From Candidatus Poribacteria bacterium (GTDB taxonomy: Bacteria; Poribacteria; WGA-4E; WGA-3G): 64,000 nucleotides of DNA. Position 1 is the stretch's first letter; every line of letters starts with the position of its first letter. The position numbers and the translations under genes are program-made. The notes beneath the pieces are model-generated. The model searched no databases, was not told where the DNA came from, and saw only the letters and a program-made list of their open reading frames with translations. Where the stretch lies: the NCBI GenBank assembly GCA_021295715.1, contig JAGWBV010000012.1, forward strand, positions 17,325 through 81,324, in the 5' to 3' direction. Shown in pieces: positions 1,876 through 54,175 of this stretch.

Positions 1876-1902
1876 CTTAACCGCAAGGAAAAATAAAAGA
1901 TG
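1876..1902 (+). repeat. SD-carrying leader repeat, copy upstream of 1900
   Basis: TTAACCGCAAGGAAAAATAAAAGATG. The AAGGA serves as ribosome binding site. The same ACCGCAAGG-A/T-rich-ATG wording recurs before at least ten other genes in the window. Confidence 0.75.
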
Positions 1903-2970
1903 GCATCTAAATATCGTGTTGGAATTATCGGATGTGGTGGTATCGCCAATGCTCATGCCCGTGGCTATCAGGGTGTTGAGCAAACCGAGATTGTCGCACT
2001 TGCCGATCCAGTTCAAGCAGCTCTTGATAAGTTTGCAGACACCTACGACGTATCTGCTGAAAACTGTTATTTGGATGCGCGCGAGATGCTGGATAATGAA
2101 AACCTTGATATTGTCAGTGTCGCGACGTGGCATAAGCTCCATGCGCCAATGACAATCGCAGCGTGCGCGCGAAGTCCAAAGGCGGTGCTCTGTGAAAAAC
2201 CAATGGGTATCAGTCTCGGTGAATGTGATGAAATGTTAATCGCCGCGAATCGAAGTAATGTCAAGGTCGTCATCGGGCATCAGCGTCGTTTCAATTCCGC
2301 ATGGACGGATGCCCGTAACCTCATTGCTGAAGGGGCAATCGGTGAACCTCGACAGATTGTCTGTCACGGTGGTCAAGGGTTGTTGAATGACTGCTCACAC
2401 CTTTTTGATATGATGCGCTATGTCATCGGCGACCCGGATCCACAGTGGGTTATCGGTAACGTTGAACGGAAAACGGAACGTTACGAGCGAGATATTCAAA
2501 TTGAGGATCGGAGTGCTGGAATTATTGGCTTTTCAAATGGTTGCATCGGCATGCTCTTGCAGGAGATCGGTAGACCGAACTATCAAGGTGGCATCGTCTA
2601 TGGAACAGACGGTATCGCAGATGTGACGGAGGGACGCGTCCGTCTCCTCAACAACAAGGCTACAGACTGGGAAGAACGTCCGTCTGATGGAAGGAATCAG
2701 CACGTCGCACAAGCAACTGAACTGGTTGAATGGATTGAGGGCGGTCCTGAGCACCGCGGCGAGGCGAAACATGGGCGCGCTGCTGTTGAAATTATAATGG
2801 CGATCTATGAGTCCGCACGTATGCACGAAGTCGTCCAATTACCGCTGCGGACGCATGCCAATCCGTTGGATTTGATGATCGAAAGCGGAGAGTTGCCTAT
2901 TGAACGTCCTGGGCGTTACGACATCCGCGCGTTTTTGTTGCACGGCGAATCCATGAAACCTCAAGGATAA
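1900..2970 (+). CDS. Gfo/Idh/MocA family oxidoreductase
   Basis: This is a 356-residue NAD(P)-dependent sugar or polyol dehydrogenase-like protein. The N-terminal Rossmann motif is GIIGCGGIANAHARGY (residues 8-23), and the family's EKPMG element (VLCEKPMGISLGE) carries the catalytic lysine. The GHQRRFNSAW segment follows, and the C-terminal alpha/beta domain reads into ADVTEGRVRLL. The start ATG follows the conserved leader with AAGGA. Substrate cannot be assigned from sequence; families like this oxidise or isomerise inositols, glucosides and amino sugars. It precedes a membrane permease by 26 bp, so the two may be co-transcribed, though no functional link is obvious. Confidence 0.85.
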   Translation: MASKYRVGIIGCGGIANAHARGYQGVEQTEIVALADPVQAALDKFADTYDVSAENCYLDAREMLDNENLDIVSVATWHKLHAPMTIAACARSPKAVLCEKPMGISLGECDEMLIAANRSNVKVVIGHQRRFNSAWTDARNLIAEGAIGEPRQIVCHGGQGLLNDCSHLFDMMRYVIGDPDPQWVIGNVERKTERYERDIQIEDRSAGIIGFSNGCIGMLLQEIGRPNYQGGIVYGTDGIADVTEGRVRLLNNKATDWEERPSDGRNQHVAQATELVEWIEGGPEHRGEAKHGRAAVEIIMAIYESARMHEVVQLPLRTHANPLDLMIESGELPIERPGRYDIRAFLLHGESMKPQG

Positions 2971-2996
2971 GAGTCGCCTACGAGAATTAGAGAATT

Positions 2997-4232
2997 ATGC
3001 AGATTACACAAGGTGTTAGTGTTGGTTTGTCAGCACTGCAGCGCAACAAGTTGCGCTCTGTGCTCACAACCCTCGGAATTATCATCGGTATTGCAGCGGT
3101 TGTGGCTGTCGTTTCTGTGGGCGGCGGTGCTGAACATCTTATGCTCGCTGAATTGGAACGCATCGGCGGGGCAGGACTGATTGTCTGCTTTAGGAAAGGG
3201 GAATTTCGTAGAGAGGATGGTTCCTACTACGAAAATAGGCATCCAGAATACATTGAATACGAGGATTTGGATTTTCTCCTTGAGAATTGTCCCTCTCTTA
3301 AAGCAGCGACAGCGTTGTCAGAGATGAATTTCACTGTATCGCATAAGCACGTGAATCAGTCGCTTAATATCCAAGGCGTTACACCTTTCTATGAAGAGGT
3401 TAATAACTGGTACATTCAAGCTGGCAGATTTATTTCGGAAAGTGACATGGAGCGGAGAGAACCCGTCTGTGTCATCGGTTCTGAAGTCCGCAAGGACCTG
3501 TTTGAGAGGGAAGACCCGATTGGTCTTGAATTGAGAGTCGGCGAGGAACGGTTTACTGTCATTGGGGTCATGGAGGAAAAAGGCAACAGTATGGCGAGTG
3601 AGGGGTGGGATAATCGGGTGGTTATTCCCCTCACCACAATGGAAATCCGTTTTATTGGGCAGCAGAAAGGCCGGATCTACTTATGGGCGCAAGCCGAGAG
3701 TTATGAAAAGGTTGAACAAGCCGTCGCTGAAATCAAAGTCGCTATGCGACAACAACACGGTGATGAAAAATATTTTGAATTTTTCACTGCTAAGGAGATT
3801 ATAAAACAGGTAGGGAACGTCAGTCGGATTGTACAAATACTCTTGGGGGGTGTTGCGAGTGTTGCCTTGTTCGTTGGTGGCATCGGCATCATGAATATTA
3901 TGTTGGTCTCTGTAACGGAGAGAACACGTGAAATCGGTTTACGCAAAGCCCTTGGGGCAAAACGTCGCGACATCCTGATCCAATTCCTCATTGAAGCCAT
4001 TGTTTTAAGCATTTGCGGTGGGCTTATTGGCATTTTCATTGGAAGCAGCCTCGCCTCTGTTTCCGGTTTGGTTATTTCAAAACTCATGAAGGCGAGTTGG
4101 CCCGCTGTTGTGTCTGTCCAAGCCGCTTTGATCGCGTTTAGCGTTTCCGCATTAATCGGCATATTTTTTGGGCTCTATCCAGCGAACAAAGCCGCAGGTC
4201 TCACCCCAACAGAGGCACTGCGTCATGACTAA
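2997..4232 (+). CDS. MacB/FtsX-type ABC transporter permease
   Basis: At 411 residues it has the MacB periplasmic-core plus FtsX architecture: TM1 at about 21-42 (after SALQRNKLRS), a periplasmic domain to about 270, TM2 ~276-304, the hallmark ERTREIGLRKALGAKRRD, TM3 ~326-350 and TM4 ~372-398, ending YPANKAAGLTPTEALRHD. Such permeases work with a LolD/MacB-type ATPase in mechanotransmission (type VII) systems. No ATPase gene is adjacent: both neighbours are Gfo/Idh/MocA oxidoreductases. The nearest ATPase of the right type is at 12307 on the other strand. The ribosome binding site is weak. Confidence 0.88.
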   Translation: MQITQGVSVGLSALQRNKLRSVLTTLGIIIGIAAVVAVVSVGGGAEHLMLAELERIGGAGLIVCFRKGEFRREDGSYYENRHPEYIEYEDLDFLLENCPSLKAATALSEMNFTVSHKHVNQSLNIQGVTPFYEEVNNWYIQAGRFISESDMERREPVCVIGSEVRKDLFEREDPIGLELRVGEERFTVIGVMEEKGNSMASEGWDNRVVIPLTTMEIRFIGQQKGRIYLWAQAESYEKVEQAVAEIKVAMRQQHGDEKYFEFFTAKEIIKQVGNVSRIVQILLGGVASVALFVGGIGIMNIMLVSVTERTREIGLRKALGAKRRDILIQFLIEAIVLSICGGLIGIFIGSSLASVSGLVISKLMKASWPAVVSVQAALIAFSVSALIGIFFGLYPANKAAGLTPTEALRHD

Positions 4233-4380
4233 ATTAGCAATCAGCGATCAGCACGGCTTTTCTTGCGAAAAAACTTTTCGGCAGTCAGTATAAGAGGTAT
4301 TCGTTTAAAAAGCCCTTTTTGCTGATTGCTTTTTGCTGATTGCTTTTTGTTGATTGCTGATTGCTGACGGCTAATAAATA
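4233..4380. repeat. AATCAGC-type short-word intergenic repeats
   Basis: The gap is built largely of AGCAATCAGCGATCAGC, GCTGATTGCTTTTT (three times) and GATTGCTGATTGCTGACGG. The same words recur at 6260, 12270, 17170, 17240, 28630-28780, 50805 (inside a gene) and 56810. Confidence 0.7.
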
Positions 4381-4394
4381 AAGGAGCACGTGCT

Positions 4395-5441
4395 GTGTCA
4401 AATCGAACAACGAAAGTTCGCGCTGCTGTCGTCGGGCTCGGTTGGCCCGGGATGCAACATCTTAAAGGCTATACCGCCGATCCGCGTTCAGAAGTGATTG
4501 CTGTCTGCGATTTAGATAAGAAGCAGGTCAAGCAGGTGGCATCGGAACATAAAATACCGAATACGTATACCAGCCACTTAGAGATGTTGAAAAATGAGGA
4601 TATTGATGCTGTTAGCGTCTGTCTACCGAATTTTCTTCATGCCCCGATCTCTATTGACGCATTGAACGCTGGCAAGCATGTGCTTTGTGAGAAACCTCCT
4701 GCTCGAAGTGCACAGGAAGCGAAGGCTATGGGGGATGCCGCTGCTGAAAATGAAAAAACCCTAATGTATGCCCTCGTGCAGCGGTTTGATGGGAGCACTC
4801 AGCGACTCAAGCAGTTGATACGGGAAGGTGAACTCGGTGAAATTTACTTCGGTAAAGCGGGTTATGTCCGACGGCGTGGTGTTCCTATCGGCAAGGAAGG
4901 GTGGTTTGTCGATAAAGAGCGCGCAGGGGGTGGTGCTCTCATTGATATTGGGGTCCATGCGTTAGATTGTGTCTGGTGGCTAATGAATTCTCCAAGACCG
5001 GTTGAAGTTATGGGGACCTCCTATTCCCACTTTAAGCATCTGGTGCCTGATGACGTTAAATACGATGTTGATGATGCAACCTTTGCACAAATCCGGTTTG
5101 AAAATGGCGCGACTATTATCCTTGAAACAACGTGGGCACTGAATTTACCGGGTGACAACTACATTAAAGTCGCAGGAACGAAAGCAGGAGCGACTCTCAG
5201 TCCCTTCACCCTTTATACTGAAGAAGATGGCAAGGACTTGGATAAACCACTTAGCGCGCCTTCGATTAACGGCTTTGACGAAGAGGTAAAGCACTTCGTA
5301 GAATGCGTTGTTGATGGCAAAGAACCGATCTCCTCAGCGGAACAGGGCATTATGCTAATGCAGATGCTTGATGGTATCTACGAATCCGCAGAGAAGGGAC
5401 GGTCTGTGCCCATCGCAGATCTAAGTGCCGCGACCGGATGA
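4395..5441 (+). CDS. Gfo/Idh/MocA family oxidoreductase
   Basis: 348 residues, GTG start placed by AAGGAG at 4381-4386. It has a Rossmann nucleotide site (VVGLGWPGMQHLKGY), the EKPPA version of the family's EKP motif, and a C-terminal domain with GGGALIDIGVHALDCVWWL containing the usual catalytic-region D/H pair. Substrate unknown. Its stop overlaps the start of the next gene by ATGA, so it is translationally coupled to the ABC-2 permease at 5438. This suggests one transcript covering the dehydrogenase and the exporter. Confidence 0.87.
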   Translation: MSNRTTKVRAAVVGLGWPGMQHLKGYTADPRSEVIAVCDLDKKQVKQVASEHKIPNTYTSHLEMLKNEDIDAVSVCLPNFLHAPISIDALNAGKHVLCEKPPARSAQEAKAMGDAAAENEKTLMYALVQRFDGSTQRLKQLIREGELGEIYFGKAGYVRRRGVPIGKEGWFVDKERAGGGALIDIGVHALDCVWWLMNSPRPVEVMGTSYSHFKHLVPDDVKYDVDDATFAQIRFENGATIILETTWALNLPGDNYIKVAGTKAGATLSPFTLYTEEDGKDLDKPLSAPSINGFDEEVKHFVECVVDGKEPISSAEQGIMLMQMLDGIYESAEKGRSVPIADLSAATG

Positions 5442-6253
5442 AACGCATCAATTTAGCATTCCAAGTCTATCTGGCGTTTATAAAGAAATCGTTTCAGAGA
5501 AGGATGCAATATCGGGTCGCAAACCTCGCAGGCTTGACGACTAATTTCTTCTTTCTGCTGGTGCATATCTTTGTCTATACTGCTTTCTACGCAGCGCGTA
5601 CCGTTCCCCAACCCCTTAGTCTGAATGAAATTATCACCTATTTCGTTCTGTGTCAGGTGTCTTTCATGCTCATGCCGCTTTGGGGGACTCGCTCTGAAGT
5701 TACAAGCGCGATTAAAGACGGCAGCGTTGCGCTCCAATTAACCAAACCTGTCGATTTCCAGGCATATTGGTTTGCCGATGAGTGCGGGAGAGCCTTTTAT
5801 TTTTTACTCATGCGGGGATTTCCGACCTTCCTTATCAGCATGCTCTTCTTCAAGGTTACAATTCCGCAGCAGCCCACCGTTTTGATGGCGTTTACAGTTT
5901 CAATGCTGCTCGCTGTTTTCATGAGTAATGCTATCACGATAACAATCTTTAGCTCGGGGTTCTGGACGCTGGATACAACAGGAATTCCTGGAATGTCTTA
6001 TTCCATAATCACCCTGTTTTCTGGAATGTTGGTCCCAATTGCGCTATGGCCCGAATGGTTGGCACACATCGCCAGATGGCTACCCTTTGAAGGCTTGATT
6101 GACATCCCATTTAGTATCTATTTGGGCAAAATTACAGGTATTGAAGTCTGGATTGCTATAGGCAAACAGATGGGGTGGAACCTCTTTTTTATTGGCTTGG
6201 GACGGTTTCTCTTAACCCGTGGCTTTTCGCGGTTGGTGATACAAGGCGGTTAG
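5438..6253 (+). CDS. ABC-2 family transporter permease (first of pair)
   Basis: 271 residues with about six membrane segments. It fits the ABC-2-like family PF06182, whose members occur as two different permeases beside one ATPase. Visible traits are an N-terminal YLAFIKKSFQRRMQYR amphipathic stretch, the loop DGSVALQLTKPVDFQAYW and the final LFFIGLGRFLLTRGFSRLVIQGG. It overlaps the preceding dehydrogenase by 4 bp. Together with 6363 and 7333 it makes a complete exporter; the cargo is unknown, and polysaccharide, lipid or drug are all possible for the family. Confidence 0.82.
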   Translation: MKRINLAFQVYLAFIKKSFQRRMQYRVANLAGLTTNFFFLLVHIFVYTAFYAARTVPQPLSLNEIITYFVLCQVSFMLMPLWGTRSEVTSAIKDGSVALQLTKPVDFQAYWFADECGRAFYFLLMRGFPTFLISMLFFKVTIPQQPTVLMAFTVSMLLAVFMSNAITITIFSSGFWTLDTTGIPGMSYSIITLFSGMLVPIALWPEWLAHIARWLPFEGLIDIPFSIYLGKITGIEVWIAIGKQMGWNLFFIGLGRFLLTRGFSRLVIQGG

Positions 6254-6257
6254 TAGA

Positions 6258-6362
6258 ATAGCAGTCAGCAATCAGCAGTCAGCGGTTGGTAAAGAAGGTG
6301 TTTGCTTGGGTGTTTCCTCGTTTCAGATTACCTCTTAACAGACAGCCGACAACGAATAAAAA
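6258..6362. repeat. Mixed repeat block between the two permeases
   Basis: GCAGTCAGCAATCAGCAGTC at 6261-6280 is followed by a TTTGCTTGGGTGTTTCC word at 6301-6317. Both belong to dispersed families found throughout the window. Confidence 0.65.
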
Positions 6363-7163: not shown

Positions 7164-7245
7164 TTTATTGGGTTTCGGTTTCCCCGCTCTCTACTACGCT
7201 TACGAATAGGTTTTCGGTTATTAGGTCTTTCTTAAAGTCGGAACC

Positions 7246-7335
7246 GTAGTCCGTAACGGAGTGGAGGACGGATTTGAGAAACGGACTACAAGACACAACG
7301 ACGGCTATTTCTCCGCAAGGTAAGTTTAAAAGATG
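7246..7335 (+). repeat. Composite leader repeat before the ABC-2 ATPase
   Basis: A TAGTCCGTAACGGAGTGGAGG word (7246-7266) is followed downstream by TCTCCGCAAGGTAAGTTTAAAAGATG, the SD-carrying end. It is the same modular order as at 14907-15017, 37496-37640 and 46890-46996. Confidence 0.65.
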
Positions 7336-8358: not shown

Positions 8359-8359
8359 C

Positions 8360-8389
8360 TTGACAGACCTGAAATCTATACGGTAAAAT
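8360..8389 (+). promoter_or_regulatory. Sigma-70-type promoter for the LamG gene
   Basis: TTGACA (8360-8365), an 18-bp spacer and TAAAAT (8384-8389). It lies immediately after the ATPase stop and leaves a ~180-nt leader before the next start codon. Confidence 0.7.
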
Positions 8390-8510
8390 GTCTGAGTGAG
8401 TTTTGGCGAACCGATATAGTTATGGGTTTGTCTTATTAGTAGTTGTGTAACGCTTAAAGGTGTGGGCTCATCTGCGTATTGCGCCTACCTTGTTGTGCAT
8501 AATGAGAAAG

Positions 8511-8531
8511 GCACCTATAGAAAATAGGTGC
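8511..8531 (+). promoter_or_regulatory. Leader hairpin upstream of LamG gene
   Basis: A perfect 8-bp stem (GCACCTAT / ATAGGTGC) with the loop AGAAA, followed by GCAAAACGAAGCCT. The downstream word faintly recalls the GCAAAGCC element of c-di-GMP-I riboswitches, but the conserved core is not matched well enough to call one. Confidence 0.4.
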
Positions 8532-8576
8532 TTGCAAAACGAAGCCTGATTTCTATGATCAAAAGGAGCGATTTAA

Positions 8577-9341: not shown

Positions 9342-9345
9342 AAAC

Positions 9346-9425: not shown

Positions 9426-9443
9426 ACGCTTAGAAGGAATCAA

Positions 9444-13119: not shown

Positions 13120-13160
13120 TTTTTAATTATTCCTTGCGGTTTGGTGAGGTGGGTTGAGTG
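13117..13160 (-). repeat. SD-carrying leader repeat before the LolD-type ATPase
   Basis: Read on the minus strand: CCACCTCACC, then AAACCGCAAGGAATAATTAAAAAATG split over the element. It matches the leader copy at 14907-14945 almost base for base. Confidence 0.75.
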
Positions 13161-13263
13161 ACCAACACTCCTCTCCGTATATCCGCCTGCGCCGTTGTTG
13201 CAGGCTCCAATTTCGTTAAAGCTGCACAATCTAACAGATTATGCTACAAGTTCCCAAAACGAC

Positions 13264-13769: not shown

Positions 13770-13841
13770 TTTCTGTCATCAGTTACAAGAGGCTTTTGTT
13801 AAACGAATACCTCTTAACTGAAAACCGATAACTGATAACTA

Positions 13842-14909: not shown

Positions 14910-15017
14910 ATTTTAATTTTCCTTGCGGTTCGGTGAAGTGGGTCTCATAATGGGTTTCCTTTACGTAGACCTGAAGAAACACCCAAGCAAAACCCCTCCA
15001 CTACGTTACGGACTACC
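14907..15017 (-). repeat. Full composite leader repeat
   Basis: On the minus strand, in order: a GTAGTCCGTAACGTAGTGG word, GGGGTTTTGCTTGGGTGTTT, a CAGGTCTACGTAAAGG segment, CCCACTTCACCGAACCGCAAGG and AAAATTAAAATATG. The last ATG is the start of the duplicated-domain gene. Copies at 33282-33400 and 37496-37640 have the same modular order. Confidence 0.75.
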
Positions 15018-15146
15018 GGTTTTGTGTGATCTTTAATTTTATCACCAAACCGCGTAGCCTGCGACAATCCGCAGAAATCCGCAGAAACACCCTAAACACG
15101 CAGGCGCATTTGAGGAATACACGTCAAGGCCGAATGTTCAGTGTTT

Positions 15147-15168
15147 TCTCCGCAAGGAAAAATTAAAA
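15147..15168 (+). repeat. Orphan leader repeat overlapping a stop codon
   Basis: CTCCGCAAGGAAAAATTAAAA on the plus strand, with no ATG after it. On the minus strand the same bases supply the TAA stop (15163-15165) of the OPT-like gene. The 15018-15146 stretch holds degenerate CGCAGAAACACCC words and no gene. Confidence 0.6.
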
Positions 15169-17442: not shown

Positions 17443-17583
17443 TTTTTAACTATGGTCCTCTACACAGATACCGCCCCTACGGGGCTAAGATAACGTGAAA
17501 CCAAAAACGCAACCTGCAACAATACGCAGAAATACCCAAGCAAAAACACGCAAGTGGGTTCTCTGAAAGAATTGTTAAATACA
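17443..17583. repeat. Repeat-filled gap after the giant gene
   Basis: It holds a CGCCCCTACGGGGC palindrome (17472-17485) and an AAATACCCAAGCAAAAACACG word (17530-17550) of the TGCTTGGGTG family. No gene. Confidence 0.6.
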
Positions 17584-33284: not shown

Positions 33285-33400
33285 TTTTTAATAATTCCTT
33301 GCGGTTCGGTAAGCTGAGTTGGGGATTTGATATGCCTTTCCGTATGTCTGAAGAACACCCAAGCAAAAACCCTTCCACTTCGTTTCAGGCTAAGTGCTTT
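33282..33400 (-). repeat. Full composite leader repeat
   Basis: On the minus strand: AAACGAAGTGGAAGGG, TTTTTGCTTGGGTGTTC, CTTACCGAACCGCAAGG, AATTATTAAAAAATG. The final ATG is the start of the 1364-residue gene. Confidence 0.72.
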
Positions 33401-37498: not shown

Positions 37499-37640
37499 GT
37501 TTTAATTGTTCCTTGCGGTTCGGTCAGGGGCGTTAGGACTTTATGCTGCCGGTTAATCAACCTTCCGGTATACCTGGGGAAATCCGCAGAAACACCCTAT
37601 CAAAAACACCCTCCGCTACGCTTACGGGCTACGCGCTTAA
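37496..37640 (-). repeat. Full composite leader repeat
   Basis: On the minus strand: TAGCCCGTAAGCGTAGCGG, GGTGTTTTTGATAGGGTGTT, CAGGTATACCGGAAGG, CCTGACCGAACCGCAAGG, AACAATTAAAACATG. The last ATG starts dgoD. The rest of the 428-bp gap (37641-37786) shows no further gene. Confidence 0.72.
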
Positions 37641-40525: not shown

Positions 40526-40967
40526 ATGGTATTATCTGACGTGTGACGAAGATGGCGATCCTTGAAAAGCGGATATGTCCCACAGTTCCCCTGCTGAAGA
40601 AAATAATAGTTACGTGAGTTTGATAAAAGTGTCAAGTTGGGTTTCGCTACCGTTATTGACACAGAAAGTGTCTTGAAAAACGACACATCTCTCCACATTC
40701 TGCGATTTTTTTGGCGTGTTTACCGCTCTACCTAGGGGAAACACCCAAGCAAAAACACCTACAGATTTATTTTCAAACTGGCGTTGGTTGGCATCTGCGG
40801 CGGTTTCGTTCAATGTTCACTTCTCCCTTACAATTTTTCCAATTAAGTTAGTCGATCCTTACCACAAAACCTATGATGTGTTGATGTGGGGCATAGATTT
40901 TTCAGTGTTTGCTCTAACTTGGGTGGGATGTGTGGAACATTTTGCTTACATGAGATGGAGGCAACTT
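40526..40967. other. 442-bp gap with one TGCTTGGGTG-family repeat
   Basis: GGGGAAACACCCAAGCAAAA followed by ACACCTACAG at 40736-40765; the inverse of the same 30 bp recurs at 54019-54050. A TTGACA at 40656-40661 has no fitting -10 box. No gene is supported. Confidence 0.5.
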
Positions 40968-42605: not shown

Positions 42606-43562
42606 CTATCTGCGTAGGGATTGCATGAACGCTTCAAGGCTATCGGATTGAGGAATTGTGAGTAGCAATTGCCTGAGGTCTTGCAAATCGTCTATAGATT
42701 CAAGGGCAGGCTTTAAGGTTTCAACAGCATCAGTGTTGAATTGCATTGTTAACAATGCGATGATGCTTTCGATAGTGCCTTTTCTCTCGCCTTGTTCAAT
42801 TCCTTGTTCAATTCCTTGTTCAATTCCTTGTTCAATTCCTTGTTCAATTCCTTGTTCAATTCCTTGTTCAAGAGCTTCTTGTTTTGCCTCTTGAATGTAA
42901 AGTTGAAAAAAAGGGGATTCTTGCATGATGCCCTCCGGTAAAAGGTGTTTAATCAATTGTGGTTCATAAATCAATCCACCAAAAATGCCGAGTGCTGCGA
43001 GTAAAATATCCCGGGTGTATTGATCCGCGCGTACCGACGCTGTCACGTCAATACATTTTTCCAGCCAGCGGTTTGGTTCTATTCTTTCTGGTGGTTTCAT
43101 CAGCGGTGTTAAAGGCAATAATCCCGGTGCCTGCATTTCCAAAACCGATTGTCCGTCTATCTCAATCAGTCTTATCACTTTATAGCGTAGTATGTACTCG
43201 TAACCGGGTCCCTTATAAGCATAATAACCTTTATCATTTCTACCTGCATTAGGGCGCAGATAGATGACGTTAGAATAGACAGGTATCTGATGTAGATGAA
43301 TAAGAAAACCGTTATAGCCTGCAATGCGGCTCCACATCGGTTTTTGGCTATCGCCTGTTTGTACTTCGGTGTGGAGTATTACTGTTTCGTTTGGGAGCTG
43401 CACCTTCAAAGTACTATCATTTTGATGCGTTTTGAGTGTCGGTTCTTCAGTTTCGAGTTTCTCTAGAACTTTGAGATTTGAATGTCCGATTATGAATTCT
43501 GCGAATTCTTGTGAGTGTTCCAGCATGATATATTTCGATGCATTGTTGTAATACTGTGCCAT
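42606..43562 (-). CDS. Rpn-family (PD-(D/E)XK) recombination-promoting nuclease-like protein
   Basis: 318 residues. N-terminal nuclease-like region with LPNETVILHTEVQTGDSQ (the E-x-Q of the PD-(D/E)XK core) and SRIAGYNGFLIHLHQIPVYSNVIYL, followed by the helical region typical of Rpn/DUF4351 proteins. Residues ~233-260 are seven EQGI tetrapeptides in a row, encoded by a perfect 12-bp tandem repeat. These proteins are thought to promote recA-independent recombination and to vary in repeat number. It sits between pyrB and pyrD and interrupts an otherwise pyrimidine-related run, suggesting insertion. Confidence 0.8.
   Translation of the reverse strand: MAQYYNNASKYIMLEHSQEFAEFIIGHSNLKVLEKLETEEPTLKTHQNDSTLKVQLPNETVILHTEVQTGDSQKPMWSRIAGYNGFLIHLHQIPVYSNVIYLRPNAGRNDKGYYAYKGPGYEYILRYKVIRLIEIDGQSVLEMQAPGLLPLTPLMKPPERIEPNRWLEKCIDVTASVRADQYTRDILLAALGIFGGLIYEPQLIKHLLPEGIMQESPFFQLYIQEAKQEALEQGIEQGIEQGIEQGIEQGIEQGIEQGERKGTIESIIALLTMQFNTDAVETLKPALESIDDLQDLRQLLLTIPQSDSLEAFMQSLRR
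42791..42870. repeat. 12-bp tandem repeat, ~6.7 units
   Basis: Six full CTTGTTCAATTC units plus CTTGTTCA, all identical. Encodes EQGI repeats in the Rpn-like protein on the minus strand. Confidence 0.9.
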
Positions 43563-44942: not shown

Positions 44943-46892
44943 TTACCAACTCAGATAGACGACGCGAAAGTCGAAAATTAGTCCCAGAATGCTAATGATG
45001 GATGCAACGATTACATCTCCAATAACCAGACCGATGAAAAAGGGGATAGAACGCCTATACAACCGAACACCACCCGTTGAAAGCAAAATCCGTTTCACAA
45101 TCCAGCTGATTAAGAGTGGAAACCAGAGTCCAGTAAAGGTCCACCAACTCGAGACGACGTAACCGACGGGGTGTAGGGGCCACTGAACGAATCGCCATCG
45201 CAAGAGCAAAAGGCTGACGGCGAAAGCGAATCCGCCGCTGGTATAGAGCATACCGCTAATACTCGTTTCGGTGGGATTGTAGAGCCATCCCGCGAGCCTG
45301 TTGAAAGCAGCGCGGGCATACCACGAGCGTGCTTGTTCTAAGCCGACTTCGTAGGAGAGGTGTAGATGTCCCCAAGCGGCGGAGAGTGCGCCTACAAAAA
45401 TGGCGATCGCTAATACCCACAGCAGTTGTGTCGGGTTGAAACGGGTTTGATGTGCGAGTTTTAATCCCTCCAATTGGTGCGGCATCGGGTGCGCGCGATA
45501 GGAGAGGTGATTCAGCCAGAAAAAGAGCGACATCACCGAAAGATTCCGGTTCCCGATGCGTCGTGTACCCAATGCATCTGTCAAGAGCAGATCTGGACCG
45601 GCGTTGTAGAGATCGTGCGCGGGCGGTCCGAGTTCGGCACGAATCCGGGTGATTGTTATGGACATCGCGAAATAGAGCGCGAAAAATAGACCCGCAAACC
45701 AGAGCGACATCCCTGCCTTGAGACAGAACGCCATAATCAAAATAAATCCGACAACCACCCCGATTCCCGCTGTCCTGTAGCGTAACGCTTCACCTTCGTC
45801 GTGTAGAGGTGGGGTTCCCCCGCCCCTACTGAAAATCGTTTGCAACACGACCTTGACGTGTGCGCGTCCCATCCATAATGTCCAGAGGAAGAGGGCTATC
45901 CATACACCTCGGATTTGCGCCATTTCCCTCGGAAATCCAATGGCTCCGCGCCAGCCGAACATTTCACCGACGATCCGTTGGAAGTGCCAAAATAGGTGAA
46001 AGAACCAGCAGGAGAACCCTAAATCCAGCGGAATCAGGAAACCTACGCCAATCGCAAACGGAAAAAAACTGATACGGAAACCCGGATTGTTCATCGCGCT
46101 CCACGGCTTATCGGGGAGTCGGAATCCGCGATACAACGGAATTGTAGGGAAAACTGGATCGATTTGGTGTAAACTATAGAGTAGGTTCAGGACAGCCGCG
46201 ATGCTTAAGCCGACAACCATCATCCGTTTATTGAAAAATAGATGAGACGTTGTTCGCAGGGAGTTTCCTACATTTGAAGCTGCGCGTGTGATTTCGTAAG
46301 GAAGTTGCGCGATCGGGTAGGTGAGCCGTTCATGTTCCTGCCACTGCTTGCGTAAAAGCACGTTGAGACAGAGCATTGTCATTCCGATGACGAGGCAGAA
46401 GCCCACCCATATCAGTGTTGGCAGCAGCCATGCCTGCATGTTTGTCTGAAGATAGAATGTGGATTCGCCTTTGTAGAAGCCTTGCAGTACCTCCTGTTTT
46501 CCGACGACAAGCCATTCGGGGAGATGTTGATGGAAAAGTTGTGCCCATTCGTTTTCGGTCGTTGCGTACCAAAAACCGTTACCCATTAACGGCACCAAGA
46601 CCTGTAGCATATCGCGACCTGCGAAAACGGAGGCTTGGCACAGCATCGCATAGATGGTTAACAATTCGCTCTGCGTAAACGCCAGTGTGGGGCGTAAACG
46701 GCGCAGGACCGCGCTGAATCCGATCAGGACGAGTAACGTGAATAGAACATTAAACAGTAATGCCAAACTCGTAGGTCGGTTGGAATCCCAGATATAACTC
46801 AGATGTAGAACCCAGTAACTATTAAAGGGGATGAGGAGGATACCGATCAGCGTTGCACGTAGCGTAATAGGACTTTTTGAAGGGTGTTTCAT
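44943..46892 (-). CDS. DUF6785/DUF6784 membrane protein
   Basis: 649 residues with ~14 hydrophobic segments. The opening RATLIGILLIPFNSYWVLHL and LAFTQSELLTIYAMLCQASVFAGRDML, the EHERLTYPIAQLPYEI segment and the C-terminal GVRLYRRSIPFFIGLVIGDV are typical of DUF6785 proteins, an OPT-related family common in Planctomycetes-like and Poribacteria-like genomes. Probably a transporter; substrate unknown. Residues ~354-363 (RGGGTPPLH) are encoded by a GC palindrome of a dispersed type. Confidence 0.82.
   Translation of the reverse strand: MKHPSKSPITLRATLIGILLIPFNSYWVLHLSYIWDSNRPTSLALLFNVLFTLLVLIGFSAVLRRLRPTLAFTQSELLTIYAMLCQASVFAGRDMLQVLVPLMGNGFWYATTENEWAQLFHQHLPEWLVVGKQEVLQGFYKGESTFYLQTNMQAWLLPTLIWVGFCLVIGMTMLCLNVLLRKQWQEHERLTYPIAQLPYEITRAASNVGNSLRTTSHLFFNKRMMVVGLSIAAVLNLLYSLHQIDPVFPTIPLYRGFRLPDKPWSAMNNPGFRISFFPFAIGVGFLIPLDLGFSCWFFHLFWHFQRIVGEMFGWRGAIGFPREMAQIRGVWIALFLWTLWMGRAHVKVVLQTIFSRGGGTPPLHDEGEALRYRTAGIGVVVGFILIMAFCLKAGMSLWFAGLFFALYFAMSITITRIRAELGPPAHDLYNAGPDLLLTDALGTRRIGNRNLSVMSLFFWLNHLSYRAHPMPHQLEGLKLAHQTRFNPTQLLWVLAIAIFVGALSAAWGHLHLSYEVGLEQARSWYARAAFNRLAGWLYNPTETSISGMLYTSGGFAFAVSLLLLRWRFVQWPLHPVGYVVSSWWTFTGLWFPLLISWIVKRILLSTGGVRLYRRSIPFFIGLVIGDVIVASIISILGLIFDFRVVYLSW
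45803..45829. repeat. GC-rich palindrome inside a coding sequence
   Basis: GTAGAGGTGGGG, TTC, CCCCGCCCCTAC: 12-bp arms with two G-T-type mismatches. It is in frame within the DUF6785 gene. Related GC palindromes lie in gaps at 17472 and 56785. Confidence 0.7.
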
Positions 46893-47040
46893 GTTTTTAA
46901 TTTACCTTGCGGTTAGACAAGGTGGATTAGGACTTTGACGTTTTTTCCGAGCAGCCGCCCTCCACTACGTTGCGGGCTACGTGCTTTGGTGATTTCATAT
47001 TTTACCTTTCCTTGTGGTTCGTATAGGTGGGTTTTTCGAG
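46890..47040 (-). repeat. Two tandem leader repeats with a 23-codon mini-ORF between
   Basis: The proximal copy (CTAACCGCAAGGTAAATTAA to the ATG) starts the DUF6785 gene. A second copy (CGAACCACAAGG, then AAAGGTAAAATATG) begins a mini-ORF at 46998-46927, MKSPKHVARNVVEGG and onwards to a TAA, which ends just before the proximal copy. 47041-47191 shows an AT-rich leader and AAGGAG for the next plus-strand gene. Confidence 0.7.
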
Positions 47041-47191
47041 TAAGGGTTAAGCCGAATGATGTGTAAATTTAGGAGGGTATGTGCGGATAAAATATTTAAA
47101 AAGCCGAACAAGTTCCTTAATTAAAATCAATGTGCCCAAAAACCTGCCTGAAACGAAGCGGCAAGCAACCAAGGAGCCGATAAATTAAAAG

Positions 47192-47404: not shown

Positions 47405-47450
47405 TGATACGGAATTCTTGGATCGGTGTGCGCCTCAATTGTCAGTGTCC

Positions 47451-48158
47451 CTATAAATTAGAGATTTCCTCGGTCTTTTCTTCGGCAGATGTCGGTTCGG
47501 CATCCGCTGTTTTGCCAGAGAGGTAGAGAAACCATAGCGTGAGTCCACTTGCAATGAGAATCCACAGTACCCCCCAAACCTCAGTCGGAATGCCTGTGAC
47601 TTCCGAGAGCATTCGGGCATCCGAACGGAGATTCGATCTGTCCAGAACATCGCTTTTAATGTCAAGAATTGCGTAGAGACAACTCGTCACGCCGATAATA
47701 CGGAGAATCCAATCGTTGACTGCCTCTGGGAGGTAGAAACCGATTGCCACCAGCGCGATGCCAAAGCCGATGCCGAACAGGTAAGTAAATGTGCTCTCGC
47801 CGTAGCCGATGGAGATAGCCACCATACCGGTGCCGATAAGGATACTAATCGCTTTATCTAAACGGGTTCTCGCTGCCAAGAGTAAGATGAGTCCGCCCCA
47901 TAACAGACTACCAAGATAACCTGCGGTCAACGTCAAAAACCGCGAGCCGCCTTGTGTCAGCGCGTGCCCTCCCTGCTGCGGATTAATCTGAATCTCTACA
48001 ATACTGCCTCCAGTTGCGATCGCCGCAAGACCGTGGCTCACTTCATGCATAAAGACGACAAAGATTTTGAGGGGATACACAAACGGCGTGTTCCATAAAA
48101 ACCCGATACCGATGAAAATCAGGAGCAGCGCAATGTAGCGTTGAAAAATTGTTAGCAT
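47451..48158 (-). CDS. M50-type (site-2-like) membrane metallopeptidase
   Basis: 235 residues with about six membrane segments. The zinc motif HEVSHG (H38, E39, H42) sits in a helix after KIFVVFM; GYLGSLLWGGLILLLAAR follows. It fits the short M50B-like family (PF13398). Probably cleaves membrane-embedded substrates; whether the second zinc ligand is present is unclear. A charged ~20-residue tail ends the protein. Confidence 0.82.
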   Translation of the reverse strand: MLTIFQRYIALLLIFIGIGFLWNTPFVYPLKIFVVFMHEVSHGLAAIATGGSIVEIQINPQQGGHALTQGGSRFLTLTAGYLGSLLWGGLILLLAARTRLDKAISILIGTGMVAISIGYGESTFTYLFGIGFGIALVAIGFYLPEAVNDWILRIIGVTSCLYAILDIKSDVLDRSNLRSDARMLSEVTGIPTEVWGVLWILIASGLTLWFLYLSGKTADAEPTSAEEKTEEISNL

Positions 48159-48460
48159 GTTTTAATTTTACCTTGCGGTTAGATGATGCGGGTAGTTAAA
48201 AATGCTTGCTTTTTGCGATGGAATTTGATATAGTATACCATAAGACGTTGAAAATATACAATTCTAAGTATAAGTTATCAGTTCTCGGTTTTCAGTTTTC
48301 AGTTAAGAGGTTTCTGCGTAACAATGTACCTCTTTCTGGAGTACTCCAAGCGTGTAGAGCAAAGACAAATTTGGCTCTCCGCGTGTGGGAAACCAAATTT
48401 GGGTAGATTGTCCCAGAATAGTCTCTAACCGACAACTGACAACCAACAATGAATAAATAA
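48156..48460. repeat. Leader repeat and CAGTTTTCAGTT words upstream of M50 and aroC
   Basis: 48156-48195 carries the minus-strand leader (CTAACCGCAAGGTAAAATTA to the ATG) of the M50 gene. 48270-48310 is GTTCTCGGTTTTCAGTTTTC-type repeat. No promoter for aroC is obvious. Confidence 0.6.
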
Positions 48461-49591: not shown

Positions 49592-49596
49592 TGTAG

Positions 49597-50064
49597 GGCC
49601 AAACAATCATAACGACACACGATGTCGATGAACTGTTTATTTCTACGGTTGTTCGACTGATCCAGCGGCGCGCCTTCCCTAACCTCCGGAATATTATTGC
49701 CAAAACCCACTCAGCGGACATCGCTCGCTGGTTTCCGCACCTCCGTGCTGAAGCGAAGGCGACCCTCTTCAAGGTTTTGATTGAGGAAAAACGGATGGGA
49801 GAGGTTCTACGGGATCTCAACAGTGCCGATATCGGCGAATTCGTTGAAGAAACGGAGCCATCGGTTGTCGCGAGCATCTTGCACACAGTGCCTGCAGATG
49901 ATGTAACTATGATCATTACCGCGACCGTTGGCACGCTTATTCCGATGTTCTTCAAACGGATTCGCATTGATCCGGCTATTGCGACAGGACCGTTCGTTAC
50001 AACTGCTATTGATGTGGTCGGTATTTTCGCTTATTTTTTGCTGGCGAAAATTTTACTCTTCTAA
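49597..50064 (+). pseudogene. MgtE magnesium-transporter remnant with internal deletion
   Basis: The frame, open after a TAG at 49594, encodes the N-terminal regulatory domain of MgtE (KTHSADIARWFPHL, ATLFKVLIEEKRMGEVL, SADIGEFVEE). It then jumps from TVPADDV to TVGTLIPMFFKRIRIDPAIA and TGPFVTTAIDVVGIFAYFLL, which is the last membrane helix region. Both CBS domains and the first four helices (~300 residues) are missing. No ATG or GTG start precedes the domain. Not a working channel. Confidence 0.8.
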
Positions 50065-50069
50065 TTGGA

Positions 50070-50582
50070 ATGCGACAAATGGAAACCACAAAACCGGAAA
50101 TTAAAGGAATATCGCCTGATGAAACCTTGGAAGTCTGTGCTCGGCAGATAATCGCCAGTTACTTTCATGAAATGATGTCCTATAAAGAGGGTGCTAAAGT
50201 GGGAACTGATATCGAATTTGTCCATGATATGCGCGTCACCTCGCGTCGTTTACGAGCCGCAATGGACAATTTCGCTGACTGCTTTCCAAGGAGGTCTCCG
50301 TTCAGAAAACATTACAAAAAGATAAGGGCAATAACCCAAACGATGGGAGCCGTGCGGGATTTGGATGTCCTCATCGTTCGTTTTGAGACCGAATTAACAA
50401 ATCTGACTACAGTAGAGCAACAAGACCTCCGAGGATTGATCGAATCCCTACGGCGGAAACGGAAGGACGCACGAGAACCGATGCTAACCCTCTTTAAGGA
50501 ATTGGAAGAAACCAATTTTGAGACCGAGTTTTTGGAATTCTTTGTAGGTCGCCAATCGACTTCACCGAACTGCAAGGTATAA
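50070..50582 (+). CDS. CHAD domain protein, N-terminal half
   Basis: 170 residues. Contains the first histidine-bearing helix of a CHAD domain (VHDMRVTSRRLRAAMDNF), the FRKHYKKIRAITQTMGAVRDLDV helix pair and RGLIESLRRKRKDAREPML. A full CHAD domain needs the second half, which is the next ORF in another frame. The last residues (VGRQSTSPNCKV) are encoded by a leader-type repeat, which supplies the stop. CHAD domains bind polyphosphate. Confidence 0.8.
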   Translation: MRQMETTKPEIKGISPDETLEVCARQIIASYFHEMMSYKEGAKVGTDIEFVHDMRVTSRRLRAAMDNFADCFPRRSPFRKHYKKIRAITQTMGAVRDLDVLIVRFETELTNLTTVEQQDLRGLIESLRRKRKDAREPMLTLFKELEETNFETEFLEFFVGRQSTSPNCKV

Positions 50583-50592
50583 TTAAAAAATG
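50556..50592 (+). repeat. SD-carrying leader repeat between CHAD halves
   Basis: CGACTTCACCGAACTGCAAGG, then TATAATTAAAAAATG. It matches the minus-strand leader at 14907-14935 (CCACTTCACCGAACCGCAAGG). It contributes the stop of the first half, and the ribosome binding site and ATG of the second. Confidence 0.75.
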
Positions 50593-51165
50593 GCAAAGGC
50601 ACATAAGGTCATCGGTGTTGCACCGCTGCGGAGTTATCAGGAGAATGCTCGCATCATTCTCCCACAAAGGCTTGAAGAGGTCTACACGTGGGAGCCGTTC
50701 ATTCGAGATGAGACGAGGTGTGAAGAACTCCACAATATGCGAATTTCCATTAAACGCCTCCGCTATACCATGGAACTTTTTCGCGTGGCTTACCCAAATG
50801 GTGGTCAGCAATCAGCAGTCAGCCGTCGGCGGAATAGCGGCCAGTTTCAGGTGTCCACTGAAAGTCGAGGGCGAAGCGACTTGATTACTTATAACCAGTA
50901 CGCTGAATTTCTTGCCGTGATCGTTGATTTACAAGAGATACTCGGCGATATTCATGATGCTGATGTCGTTTTAGAGGTTTTAGCGGGTTATACATCTCAA
51001 TCGGGAAACCAAGGAGGACAGATTGATGTCCCATCGGGTGTCGTTACACTCATTGCTCGGACGAAGGAAACCCGAGAATCGGATTATGAAACGTTTTTAG
51101 AGAAGTGGGATCAACTCTCCGCCGCAGGTTTCAAACAGAAGTTGTTATCATTTTTACTATCGTAG
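50590..51165 (+). CDS. CHAD domain protein, C-terminal half
   Basis: 191 residues. Carries the second CHAD half: LHNMRISIKRLRYTMELF, AVIVDLQEILGDIHDADVVLEVLAGY and the end helix FLEKWDQLSAAGFKQKLLSFLLS. Between them, residues ~72-98 (NGGQQSAVSRRRNSGQ and following) replace a short loop and are encoded by AATCAGCAGTCAGC repeat DNA. With the preceding ORF it would make one ~360-residue CHAD protein. The two halves could still assemble as separate chains. Confidence 0.8.
   Translation: MAKAHKVIGVAPLRSYQENARIILPQRLEEVYTWEPFIRDETRCEELHNMRISIKRLRYTMELFRVAYPNGGQQSAVSRRRNSGQFQVSTESRGRSDLITYNQYAEFLAVIVDLQEILGDIHDADVVLEVLAGYTSQSGNQGGQIDVPSGVVTLIARTKETRESDYETFLEKWDQLSAAGFKQKLLSFLLS
50803..50832. repeat. 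AATCAGCAGTCAGC repeat inside a coding sequence
   Basis: GGTCAGCAATCAGCAGTCAGC in frame in the CHAD gene. Intergenic copies of the same words are at 6261 and 4233. Confidence 0.75.
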
Positions 51166-51179
51166 AAAAACCAAACACG

Positions 51180-51273
51180 CAAGCCCGGGACGTAGTGGAG
51201 GGCGGATCTGCGCAAGGGCACATCACGTACCAAACCCGCCGCAACGAACCGCAAGGAAAGTTAAAAAATTATG
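51180..51273 (+). repeat. Composite leader repeat before the ROK gene
   Basis: GGGACGTAGTGGAGGGCGG (51187-51205), then CGCAACGAACCGCAAGG, AAAGTTAAAAAATTATG. Confidence 0.68.
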
Positions 51274-52245
51274 AGTGCTAATGTTATCGGTGTGGATATG
51301 GGCGGCACCAAGATTCTGTCCGCTGTCATTGATGCAGAAGGGAATATCTTAGCCACAGCCAAAGTTCCAACAAAGGCGAACAAAGGGGCATCCGAAGTGA
51401 TTGATCGGATCGCAGGCTCTGTCCAAAAAGCGATTGACAAATCAGGCGTTGCCTCTGATTCAATTCAAGCGATCGGCATTGGTGCTCCGGGACCGCTTGA
51501 CCCGGCAACAGGCGTTGTCATTTTCGCCCCGAATCTCGGCTGGCGGGATGTTCCACTGAAGACGGAGTTGGAAACACGCACCGGCTTCCCAACTTTTGTT
51601 GACAATGATGTGAACGTCGGAACACTCGGTGAATACGTGTTTGGTGCAGGTCAAGGTGTTCAGAACGTCGTTGGGATTTTTGTCGGCACGGGTATTGGCG
51701 GTGGCATCATTCTAAACGGTGAATTGTTCCATGGTGCGAGCAAGACAGCTGGTGAAATCGGGCATATCATTGTCAAAGCTGGCGGTCCGCGCTGTGGCTG
51801 TGGGACGCGTGGCTGTTTGGAAGCGATCGCCAGCCGCACGGCAATGACGAAGCAATTCCGAAAGGCTATTCTAAAAAAGGGACAGAAAAGCGTTCTCTCC
51901 GAACTCACCGGTGGCGACCTGACCGCTATTCGGAGTGGTGTTTTGGCGAAAGCGATCCGCTTAAACGATAAGTTAACCCTCAAAGTTTTCAAAAAAGTAA
52001 CGAAATACCTTGGAATCGGCATTGGTTCCATTGTGAATTTCTTGAATCCAGAGATGATTGTGCTGGGCGGCGGTGTCGTTGAAGCATTAGACGACACGTT
52101 TTTGGACGATATTCGCGCCGCTGCGGAAAAATACGCGCTGCCCAATACGCTGAGCGGGGTTCAGATTGTACCCGCAAAGCTGGGGGATAATTCCGCTATT
52201 CTTGGCGCAGCAGCACTGGCACGGCAACGATCCGAAGCGGCGTAG
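51271..52245 (+). CDS. ROK-family sugar kinase (glucokinase-like)
   Basis: 324 residues. ATP phosphate loop IGVDMGGTKILSAVID, the sugar-binding DNDVNVGTLGEY, GIFVGTGIGGGIILNG, and the ROK zinc motif GHIIVKAGG followed by CGCGTRGCLE. It phosphorylates a hexose, most likely glucose or an amino sugar. No DNA-binding domain, so a kinase rather than a repressor. Preceded by an SD leader repeat; no operon partner on either side. Confidence 0.9.
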   Translation: MSANVIGVDMGGTKILSAVIDAEGNILATAKVPTKANKGASEVIDRIAGSVQKAIDKSGVASDSIQAIGIGAPGPLDPATGVVIFAPNLGWRDVPLKTELETRTGFPTFVDNDVNVGTLGEYVFGAGQGVQNVVGIFVGTGIGGGIILNGELFHGASKTAGEIGHIIVKAGGPRCGCGTRGCLEAIASRTAMTKQFRKAILKKGQKSVLSELTGGDLTAIRSGVLAKAIRLNDKLTLKVFKKVTKYLGIGIGSIVNFLNPEMIVLGGGVVEALDDTFLDDIRAAAEKYALPNTLSGVQIVPAKLGDNSAILGAAALARQRSEAA

Positions 52246-52285
52246 CGAAACTCAGACCCGCGACGGTATCGTTTTACTTTTCTAT

Positions 52286-52318
52286 AGCAAGTTTTGGCTT
52301 GCAAGCTGCGCCAAAATC
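52286..52318. repeat. Dispersed TTTTGGC palindrome, copy 3 (inverted)
   Basis: AGCAAGTTTTGGCTTGCAAG, then CTGCGCCAAAAT. It lies just upstream of the 52335 start. Confidence 0.68.
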
Positions 52319-52334
52319 GAGGGAGGGTAAATCC

Positions 52335-54014
52335 ATGTTAGTTGATGATAACAGAGAAGAACACCGGATGATGATTTTCGGCAACGATAGCCGTCTCGTT
52401 CAAGAGCGGTTAATCGTGGAAAAAGACGCAAAGCAGGATGGAATCTTGGCGCAGAAGGTTCACGCCGACTCCTATACCGTCACGCTGTATGTGTTGCTGA
52501 AGGATTACGGTCTCACGCCGGTATTTCGTATCAAGCCGCGCATCCGCTTCCATCGCTCTAACTACGACAACCTCTCTTCGAGTGCACCCCTACAGTATAG
52601 TCTTGATGACATCATCCATTTTGCTGAATTAAAACGCGGTATTGACTTGACGGAAAAGATTGACGATGCCAAACTCGCGGAAATCCTCGGCGATGCACCG
52701 GCACTCAAGAAGGTAACAGGTGATCCGGCGTTACATCTCGTCTCACAACGCGACGTGTCTCTCGGGAATCCGCCTTTTAAAACCAAAACTAAGGTTTTTG
52801 GAAAGAATGAAGATGAAGGTGTAGAAGAGGGTGGGATTCAGATTGGAACGTTCCTTGATGCGCTGAATCAACCGAAACAGACTGAGCAAATTTTCAAACG
52901 TTTTGCCAAGGGAAAAGAATTTGCCCATGATTTGCGCGAAGCGTTAGCACCCTACGAAGATTTTGAATTTCGGTTTGGTCTCTATTCTCGGTATGAACGA
53001 CGAGATTGTGTATTGGCAGATGGCGATGCGAAAACCAGCGGGAACTACCGTGCGACATTCGACCCGTGGACAGCACTCGGCTATATCCGCACCACTGGCG
53101 ACGCGCAACAGTTCCAAATTTTAGCACATGAACGCGGCACACGGTGGGAACACAAAGTTATGTTGGATCAGTTAGATGCTCCAACGCTTGAGCGGCTCGC
53201 TACGGAGATCCCTGGACTCCGCCGCGAATACCTCATCGGACGCGTTTTGTCGAAAAGCCAGACGGCTCTGACTCGATTAGCCGAGCTTCGCCAATCTCAG
53301 TTGAATCTCACAACCGATTTACATACCGGATATACGCTCCAGTTAGAAATACCCGTCACTAAAAAGCGGTTTTCTGTTATAGAACATCGTCGAAAGTTGC
53401 GAAGTATTTTTAATGGTGGCGGTGCTTATCGCCTGCATCCACTGAACGACGAGTTTGTTGAACGGCATCATAACATGGCGAAAGGTATCCGAGATGGTAT
53501 CGTCTGGACGTTAGATTCCGTTGATTTGTTCACAGGGCAACCGCCATTAAAGGACCAGGATGAAGAGTTCCTCATCATCAAAACACCGCATCAGAACAAA
53601 TTCGTGGTCCGTTCCGCCGAGGAGCTCCGCGAACGTCTCCCTAAAAACGGATTTGAAAAATGTTGGAATGAAGCCGTCGATGTCGGTGGTTATACCATCC
53701 TCAGTCGGATGAGTGGGAGGATCTATCTCGTGAGTTACGGACGCAGGAATACCGGCAGCATCCATGAAGGCGACCTTACCCAGGACGAAGTTGTACATTA
53801 TCTCTCAATTGAATACTTAGGGCTGGAACCTGACCGTATTGGAACTTCGCGTTTTGGGGTGCCGCTCCATGTCCAACAGGGTTTCTTTGAAAGACTTTTC
53901 AGCAGGCGACCTCTCCCACCCATCTTTAATCAGTTGATGCAAACCGAGGCACAGGTCATCGCAGAAATGAAAATCCTCGCTCGGCATTGCAAAGAGAAGC
54001 TGGAAATTCCGTAA
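52335..54014 (+). CDS. Unknown conserved-looking protein, 559 residues
   Basis: The start ATG 52335 is set by GGGAGGG 7 bp upstream; an in-frame TTG at 52299 lies in a palindromic repeat and is rejected. Not recognised. No signal peptide or membrane segment. Features seen: a basic cluster RIKPRIRFHRSNYDN near residue 70, an acidic stretch EDEGVEEGG near 165, GYTLQLEIPVTKKRFSVIEHRR near 345 and GSIHEGDLTQDEVVHYLSIEYLG near 480. Composition is ordinary for a soluble alpha/beta protein. Weak thoughts of a triphosphate-tunnel (CYTH/VTC) fold from the basic cluster and the CHAD gene two loci away are not strong enough for a call. Confidence 0.7.
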   Translation: MLVDDNREEHRMMIFGNDSRLVQERLIVEKDAKQDGILAQKVHADSYTVTLYVLLKDYGLTPVFRIKPRIRFHRSNYDNLSSSAPLQYSLDDIIHFAELKRGIDLTEKIDDAKLAEILGDAPALKKVTGDPALHLVSQRDVSLGNPPFKTKTKVFGKNEDEGVEEGGIQIGTFLDALNQPKQTEQIFKRFAKGKEFAHDLREALAPYEDFEFRFGLYSRYERRDCVLADGDAKTSGNYRATFDPWTALGYIRTTGDAQQFQILAHERGTRWEHKVMLDQLDAPTLERLATEIPGLRREYLIGRVLSKSQTALTRLAELRQSQLNLTTDLHTGYTLQLEIPVTKKRFSVIEHRRKLRSIFNGGGAYRLHPLNDEFVERHHNMAKGIRDGIVWTLDSVDLFTGQPPLKDQDEEFLIIKTPHQNKFVVRSAEELRERLPKNGFEKCWNEAVDVGGYTILSRMSGRIYLVSYGRRNTGSIHEGDLTQDEVVHYLSIEYLGLEPDRIGTSRFGVPLHVQQGFFERLFSRRPLPPIFNQLMQTEAQVIAEMKILARHCKEKLEIP

Positions 54015-54018
54015 ATCT

Positions 54019-54175
54019 GTAGGTGTTTTTGCTTGGGTGTTTCCCCTTGATTGAACTGCAGGTGAACCCATAGCTGTCAATTTTAGAAAAAATTGCATCG
54101 GGACCTCGTAGGTTGGGTTGAACGGATAGTACCCGATTCCACGTTATCCGAATCGCAAGGAAAATTTAAAAAATG
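54019..54175 (+). repeat. Long composite leader repeat before the SDR gene
   Basis: CTGTAGGTGTTTTTGCTTGG then GTGTTTCCCC (the inverse of 40736-40765), an unrelated middle, then ATCCGAATCGCAAGG and AAAATTTAAAAAATG. Confidence 0.7.

Follow-up and report, generated by a model that had tools for sequence, protein, structure and literature searches.

We describe a short interspersed repeat in a 64,000-nucleotide stretch of DNA (hereafter, the window; C12:17325-81324, GC content 48.6%) from a 5.14-Mb metagenome-assembled genome (MAG) of sponge-type Candidatus Poribacteria. The repeat is probably a small non-autonomous mobile element that supplies a ribosome-binding site and is spreading through Poribacteria genomes. 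It contains a covarying hairpin, abuts start codons, differs in presence between species and, in one clear case, has replaced the leader of a gene; judged from sequence, it appears to take over the translation start of the genes that it adjoins. The initial annotation of the window had offered two readings, a mobile element with its own translation signal and a shared post-transcriptional regulatory leader. The former is favoured because orthologous loci are polymorphic, with empty sites and apparently independent insertions, because copy number is lineage-specific, and because copies away from starts also carry the conserved tail. The closest relatives of one window protein all belong to Candidatus Poribacteria, the nearest group being 97% to 90% identical.

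The core of the repeat is about 105 nt long, often with a further 20-40 nt upstream, and has no open reading frame (ORF) of its own. Its parts follow the order CCAAAAC-nGTAGCCYG(hairpin P1)CRGGC, GGATWTA(P2), CACCTGACCGAACCGCAAGG-WAWAATTAAAAA. In the aligned copies, an A-rich 5' edge (CCAAAAC) leads into nGTAG at the foot of P1, where A7/G8 are at least 90% conserved and G5 and T6 about 66-70%. P1 mainly reads GCCTGCAACAACGGCGCAGGC or GCCCGTAACGAAGTGGAGGGC, and less often GCCCAACCAACGGGCCGGGC. Downstream of it come GGATATA/GGATTTA as a linker, the second paired region P2, CCGCAAGG and finally WAWAATTAAAAA. The 3' tail thus consists of a Shine-Dalgarno (SD) sequence, AAGG/AAGGA, and the A-rich spacer WAWAATTAAAAA. 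The GTTTTTGCTTGGGTGTTTC module does not belong to the core. It is an expandable repeat nested within P1 or next to it, can face either way, and is missing from most copies. This nested repeat (CAGAAATACCCAAGCAAAAACAC / GTTTTTGCTTGGGTGTTTCTG) consists of units of the type TATTTCTGCG, and some copies have a P1 enlarged by it; in the window it is seen at 15000-15100, 37572-37609, 17512-17549 and 40721-40758, and it is found outside the element too.

The motif extends well beyond the contig on which it was noticed. An exact core-plus-tail pattern, CCGCAAGGNANNATTAAAA, has 317 matches in the 5.1-Mb genome vs none for a reversed control, and CGAACCGCAAGG has 147 vs 2, which excludes chance. A 91-column profile trained on copies from the same genome gave 71 matches in 462 kb. 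This density suggests a total of roughly 800 copies per genome, a figure extrapolated from those first 462 kb only and on the assumption that they are typical. Eleven gene starts in the window had been listed as sharing one wording, and they do: the (C)CGCAAGG-type sequence and the AAAATTAAAA-type run to ATG are present at all eleven, and the profile matches ten. The proposal that the leader ends in the start codon has to be corrected. Conservation stops after AATTAAAAA, likewise in 80 copies that have no ATG, so the start codon is part of the gene and not of the repeat. Beyond AATTAAAAA these 80 copies have nothing in common, save a tandem repeat of the 21-nt tail in some. This tail unit, CCGCAAGGTAAAATTAAAAAT, is tandemly repeated in some copies of the window's genome (for example, L097:17460-17481 and L089:19508-19528), giving two successive SD-like sites.

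The placement of the repeat relative to genes is far from even. In 1.24 Mb of stretches from the same genome, partly picked for holding matches and with gene positions taken from simple ORF calls, 172 copies have a same-strand gene no more than 600 nt downstream, and in 90 of these an ATG lies 11-14 nt after AAGG; even placement in the same intergenic intervals predicts 4.6. Roughly half of all copies lie away from starts, and these too carry the AAGG and A-rich spacer. The AAGG-to-ATG distance has its mode at 12 nt in the window's genome and in its near relatives G024, G008 and G017 (about 93-96% identical), and in the low-copy genomes G029 (about ten matches) and G022 (one) most matches are again 12 nt from an ATG. 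All start-adjacent copies lie in the transcription-sense orientation. The 3' end of 16S rRNA, read in four congeners (the window's own MAG has no 16S), is canonical, CACCTCCTTTCT; AAGG(A) can therefore base-pair with it, at a workable distance of 12 nt from the ATG. This makes AAGG(A) a plausible, though short, SD, and the tail would then drive translation initiation of the downstream gene. Genes that lack the element, which are most of those sampled, often have AAGG(A) as their SD too. As the initial annotation had noted, the downstream genes are unrelated: by Pfam, they include an oxidoreductase, ABC ATPases, members of the enolase superfamily, an M50B peptidase, and ROK and CHAD proteins.

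The hairpin is borne out by covariation, strongly for P1 (98% paired) and more weakly for P2 (76-85%). Over P1 and P2 together, 90.1% of alignment cells are paired vs 75.7% in shuffles and only 29-47% when the 3' side is slid, and 171 cells are changed on both sides vs 58 expected. For example, P1 pair 10-27 is seen as CG, UA, AU and GC, the next pair as UA or CG, and the loop-closing pair as CG or UA. P1 pairing reaches 98.5% in start-adjacent copies and 97.9% in the others, and both groups are equally distant from the consensus. Since P1 is kept equally well off-start, the hairpin seems to be maintained by propagation of the repeat rather than by a role in downstream translation; it more likely serves the spread of the repeat than a shared regulon. 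Predicted SD accessibility is 0.46 vs 0.50 in controls with shuffled upstream sequences, which is no difference, so that sequestration of the SD leaves no signal in predicted accessibility. Inspection by eye had suggested that the P1 loop might form a pseudoknot with the bases ahead of CCGCAAGG (AACAAC/GTTGTT); this pairing is not among the best-supported pairs and is not claimed. In alignment A1 a lone pair, 68-74, encloses five bases just before CCGCAAGG; it covaries strongly (CG, GU, GC, UG, AU, UA) and is 87% paired vs 46% expected, with no supporting neighbours.

Comparison of orthologous loci revealed sites with and without the element. Presence is patchy at seven of the listed loci among the 20 congeners compared. 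At 7333, one copy is common to the window and L001, a copy of another subfamily occupies this start in L008, and the other loci, L002 and L003 among them, lack one. Different full elements run up to the ATG at 48158 in G010/G013, G027 and G034, and G008, G017, G024 and G033 read AAAGGAnTnT-ATG without an element; in G010/G013 the full element sits between the old SD, AAAGGATTTT, and the ATG. Two serial copies precede the gene at 50590 in several congeners. An insertion in G017 lies exactly at the ATG (|ATGATTCTT), where the empty loci of G024 and G008 read CTACTGAAAA|ATGATTCTT. The clear replacement is a separate case in G017: an element plus ATG stands where G024 and G008 keep the ancestral spacer, GGAGG as the SD and a TTG start. 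Another insertion, common to G024 and G017, lies within the SD, 9 nt before the ATG, and deletions that leave the tail alone are also found among these three genomes. From these sequences, the insertions at the same start codon are apparently independent of each other.

In the genomes sampled, the repeat is nearly absent outside one genus. The exact pattern has more than one match in 34 of 36 genus genomes, eight of which have about 200-360, and 0-1 in the other two; it is absent from 22 of 23 genomes outside the genus. A covariance model, whose counts per genome are lower bounds (at least 112 or at least 150 where these were reached), finds at least one match in all 38 genus genomes, with at least 112 in most, one in G022 and 8-10 in G029. 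Copy numbers reach the hundreds in G000, G010 and G027. Outside the genus it matches one of eight genomes, G047, from a different family of the same order, with a single strong match (L223, G047:C5:4933-5025) 12 nt before an ATG. This copy could reflect horizontal transfer of a gene plus its leader, or a misbinned contig.

Based on the above data, we propose that copies settle in the spacer directly upstream of a gene, with the tail abutting the start codon. The SD of the element would then lie 12 nt before the ATG and substitute for the gene's own ribosome-binding site. Later copies may land at the same start and displace earlier ones upstream, and older copies would shed the hairpin, leaving a solo SD-spacer tail. 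Spread is probably by transposition of some kind, in which a dedicated enzyme would move the repeat. Insertion might even be directed to translation starts, recognised by way of the initiation region or its transcript or by processing linked to the ribosome. Native leaders would be replaced by the SD and spacer of the element, which would thereby take over initiation at hundreds of genes without disrupting them; we hold this part of the proposal only tentatively, as rather less likely than not to be correct. A regulatory effect on individual genes is possible.

Several observations weigh against a mobile repeat. No transposase could be tied to it. It has no visible terminal inverted repeats, the 5' edge CCAAAACnGTAG and the 3' edge WAWAATTAAAAA being compared by eye on profiles, and no target-site duplication is visible in the filled and empty pairs, in which the 5' boundary is indistinct and, at one insertion, the spacer was replaced. 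Unambiguous clean insertions are few, about three exactly at an ATG and several nearby. The site at 48158 has about 60 nt of extra sequence between the old SD and the element and is therefore not a single-step insertion, and the serial copies at 50590 in G010 and G018 arose by tandem duplication, the old gene start being duplicated along with them. Finally, a transposon without an ATG target motif would not usually be so strongly biased towards start codons; the bias may come from targeting, from microhomology at A-rich spacers and the adjoining ATG, or from selection acting on random insertions.

Some of these points fit illegitimate or template-switch recombination, in which microhomology of the A-rich spacer and ATG would copy leaders from gene to gene, always ending at the ATG. 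Several recipient starts already read AAAA-ATG or TAAAATA-TTG and whole spacers have been replaced, as such a process would have it, and it also accommodates the tandem duplications at 50590, the lack of visible terminal repeats and duplications, and the lack of a candidate transposase with matching flanks. We nevertheless regard it as somewhat unlikely, since copy numbers of several hundred and the existence of subfamilies point to an efficient process, the tail lacks an ATG in about half of the copies, and the recipients at 48158 read GATTCT-ATG, without an A tract. Less probable still is a class of functional leaders, acting like riboswitches or by binding a protein, that regulate their genes jointly and have spread because this regulation is useful. 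The covarying hairpin near the SD, the strict SD-to-ATG spacing and the uniform sense orientation at starts are what one would expect of it, and a structured 5' leader with a terminal SD at a fixed distance from the ATG is indeed the form of translational riboswitch leaders. Unlike these, the element is patchy between orthologues, precedes unrelated genes, has many copies away from genes and matches no Rfam family (none at the gathering score in 104 kb, and none in 11 kb rich in copies when the threshold was relaxed), which also disposes of a known RNA family. With about half of the copies off-start, P1 equally preserved there and SD accessibility the same as with shuffled upstreams, a shared regulatory leader is not supported as the reason for the repeat. 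As for a lineage-wide consensus of SD plus AT-rich start without any discrete repeat, the frequent use of AAGG(A) by element-less genes is in its favour, yet we consider it extremely improbable. Counts of 317 vs 0, 90-100 nt of conserved order with a covarying hairpin, the same tail in about 80 sampled copies without a start codon, the many sampled genes that have no element and the near absence of the pattern outside the genus rule it out, and uphold the earlier view that more than a plain SD is involved.

The anatomy recalls repetitive extragenic palindromic (REP) sequences, in which an imperfect hairpin has GTAG at its 5' foot and which occur in hundreds of intergenic copies and hold no transposase inside. 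The element shares all three traits, including its conserved nGTAG at the P1 foot, and Y1 proteins resembling REP-associated tyrosine transposases (RAYT, TnpA-REP) exist in several congeners. To our knowledge, REPs do not carry an SD and spacer or abut start codons. Mobilisation by RAYT is unlikely, because the window's genome has no RAYT-type Y1 protein and its only Y1 transposase is an IS605 TnpA beside TnpB (L141, G000:C32:28337-28690) with no element nearby; because no element lies within about 1.6 kb of 20 congener Y1 loci; and because copy number does not track Y1 counts (G013 has no Y1 match and at least 112 copies, G022 has five Y1 and one copy). IS200/IS605-type elements have subterminal hairpins and neither terminal inverted repeats nor target-site duplications; unlike them, the element has no recognised flanking target tetranucleotide, and the single IS605 of the genome has no copy near it. 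Other routes were considered and set aside. Retrotransposition by a group II intron, retron or diversity-generating retroelement finds no reverse transcriptase, with no RVT_1 match in G000 (the window's genome), G010, G022 or G029, the last three being single-contig chromosomes. An IS110 (bridge-RNA) derivative is not suggested either, as the window's genome has no match to the DEDD transposase family PF01548. An autonomous long version was represented by one pair of half-matches 4.8 kb apart in the 1.24 Mb, whose 5' half is marginal (E 0.76), and was not accepted.

Among other known repeats, miniature inverted-repeat transposable elements (MITEs; for example, Nezha of cyanobacteria) and Correia elements are likewise short, non-autonomous and lineage-amplified, and alter the expression of their neighbours. 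The defining marks of MITEs are terminal inverted repeats and target-site duplications (PMC3049150), neither of which is seen here. The BOX, RUP and SPRITE repeats of Streptococcus pneumoniae are small, modular structured-RNA repeats transcribed in 5' and 3' extensions of operons, and BOX has interchangeable modules and gives rise to ORFs without good SD sequences (PMC3049150). The element resembles them as a small modular interspersed repeat with RNA structure and differs in its abutment of start codons, which is not reported for them in the portion of that source on which we draw (PMC3049150). We found no paper describing such a repeat in Poribacteria, in a literature coverage that is partial, so that an earlier description may exist elsewhere; a single-cell study of Poribacteria genomes makes no mention of intergenic or palindromic repeats (PMC3909097).

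If the tails of this presumably mobile repeat act as ribosome-binding sites, a selfish repeat would have changed how translation starts at hundreds of genes, in a manner particular to each species of one genus, and expression could be rewired genome-wide in this way. Orthologous genes that have a native leader, an element, two elements or a solo tail would then form a natural experiment. The precision with which the repeat meets start codons also poses a mechanistic question. In annotating these genomes, the tail can serve as a strong indicator of start codons.

Within the window, the profile gives 11 matches, ten of the listed sites and one unlisted copy. Seven of the eleven starts have the full-length element. 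Full-length elements abut ATG 7333 (7242..7332, +, subfamily B; profile match 7244-7331, E 1.4e-12), ATG 13119 (13120..13212, -, subfamily A, a row of alignment A1; E 5.2e-18) and ATG 46892 (46893..46984, -, common to congener G001; E 1.6e-17), and another stops 2 nt short of ATG 51271 (51176..51268, +; E 3.2e-12). The remaining three contain the nested repeat, which is not a constant module of the element: at ATG 14909 (14911..15019, -; E 1.5e-11) a nested GTTTTGCTTGGGTGTTTC insert follows P1, and nested inserts are also present at ATG 33284 (33285..33393, -; E 1.4e-14) and, in expanded form, at ATG 37498 (37500..37633, -; E 1.1e-09). Three starts have the 3' part only: ATG 50590 (50518..50589, +; profile columns 19-91, E 3.5e-06), ATG 48158 (48160..48195, -; columns 55-90, E 8.6e-05) and ATG 54173, where it is degenerate (CCACGTTATCCGAATCGCAAGG plus spacer; 54129..54172, +; columns 49-91, E 0.0067). 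Before ATG 1900 only the SD-plus-spacer tail is left (TTAACCGCAAGGAAAAATAAAAG; 1876..1899, +), below the profile threshold and recognised from sequence reading and orthologous loci; the element is still present at the orthologous loci L002 and L003. The unlisted copy (15053..15168, +; E 3.4e-11) has a nested insert in the P1 loop and a tail without a start codon, and is inverted relative to its neighbour at 14911-15019. Upstream of the full copy at 46892 lies the older 3' part of a second copy (ACGAACCACAAGGAAAGGTAAAATATG; 46985..47033, -; repeat family D2), also common to G001.

Other repeats were seen at or near the same kinds of site. A second family, of degenerate heptads CTCTTAACTGAAAACTGATAACTGACAAC.. 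often forming an inverted pair with GTTATCAGTTGTCAGTTAAGAGG, ends directly before starts in several congeners; it occurs at window positions 6326-6359, 48416-48449 and 13805-13838, and upstream of the ATG in L007, L016 and L026 (site 7333) and in loci of G010/G001. At L200 (G008:C21), the leader of gene TTGGATGCGACC, whose G017 orthologue has the element, holds what looks like a conventional MITE, its inverted ends being TATAGGACTTACGCA...TGCGTAAGTCCTGATA. Finally, window positions 42766-42909 hold nine copies of a 12-bp tandem repeat, CCTTGTTCAATT, inside the ORF at 42606-43562 (-), which would encode a repeated tetrapeptide.

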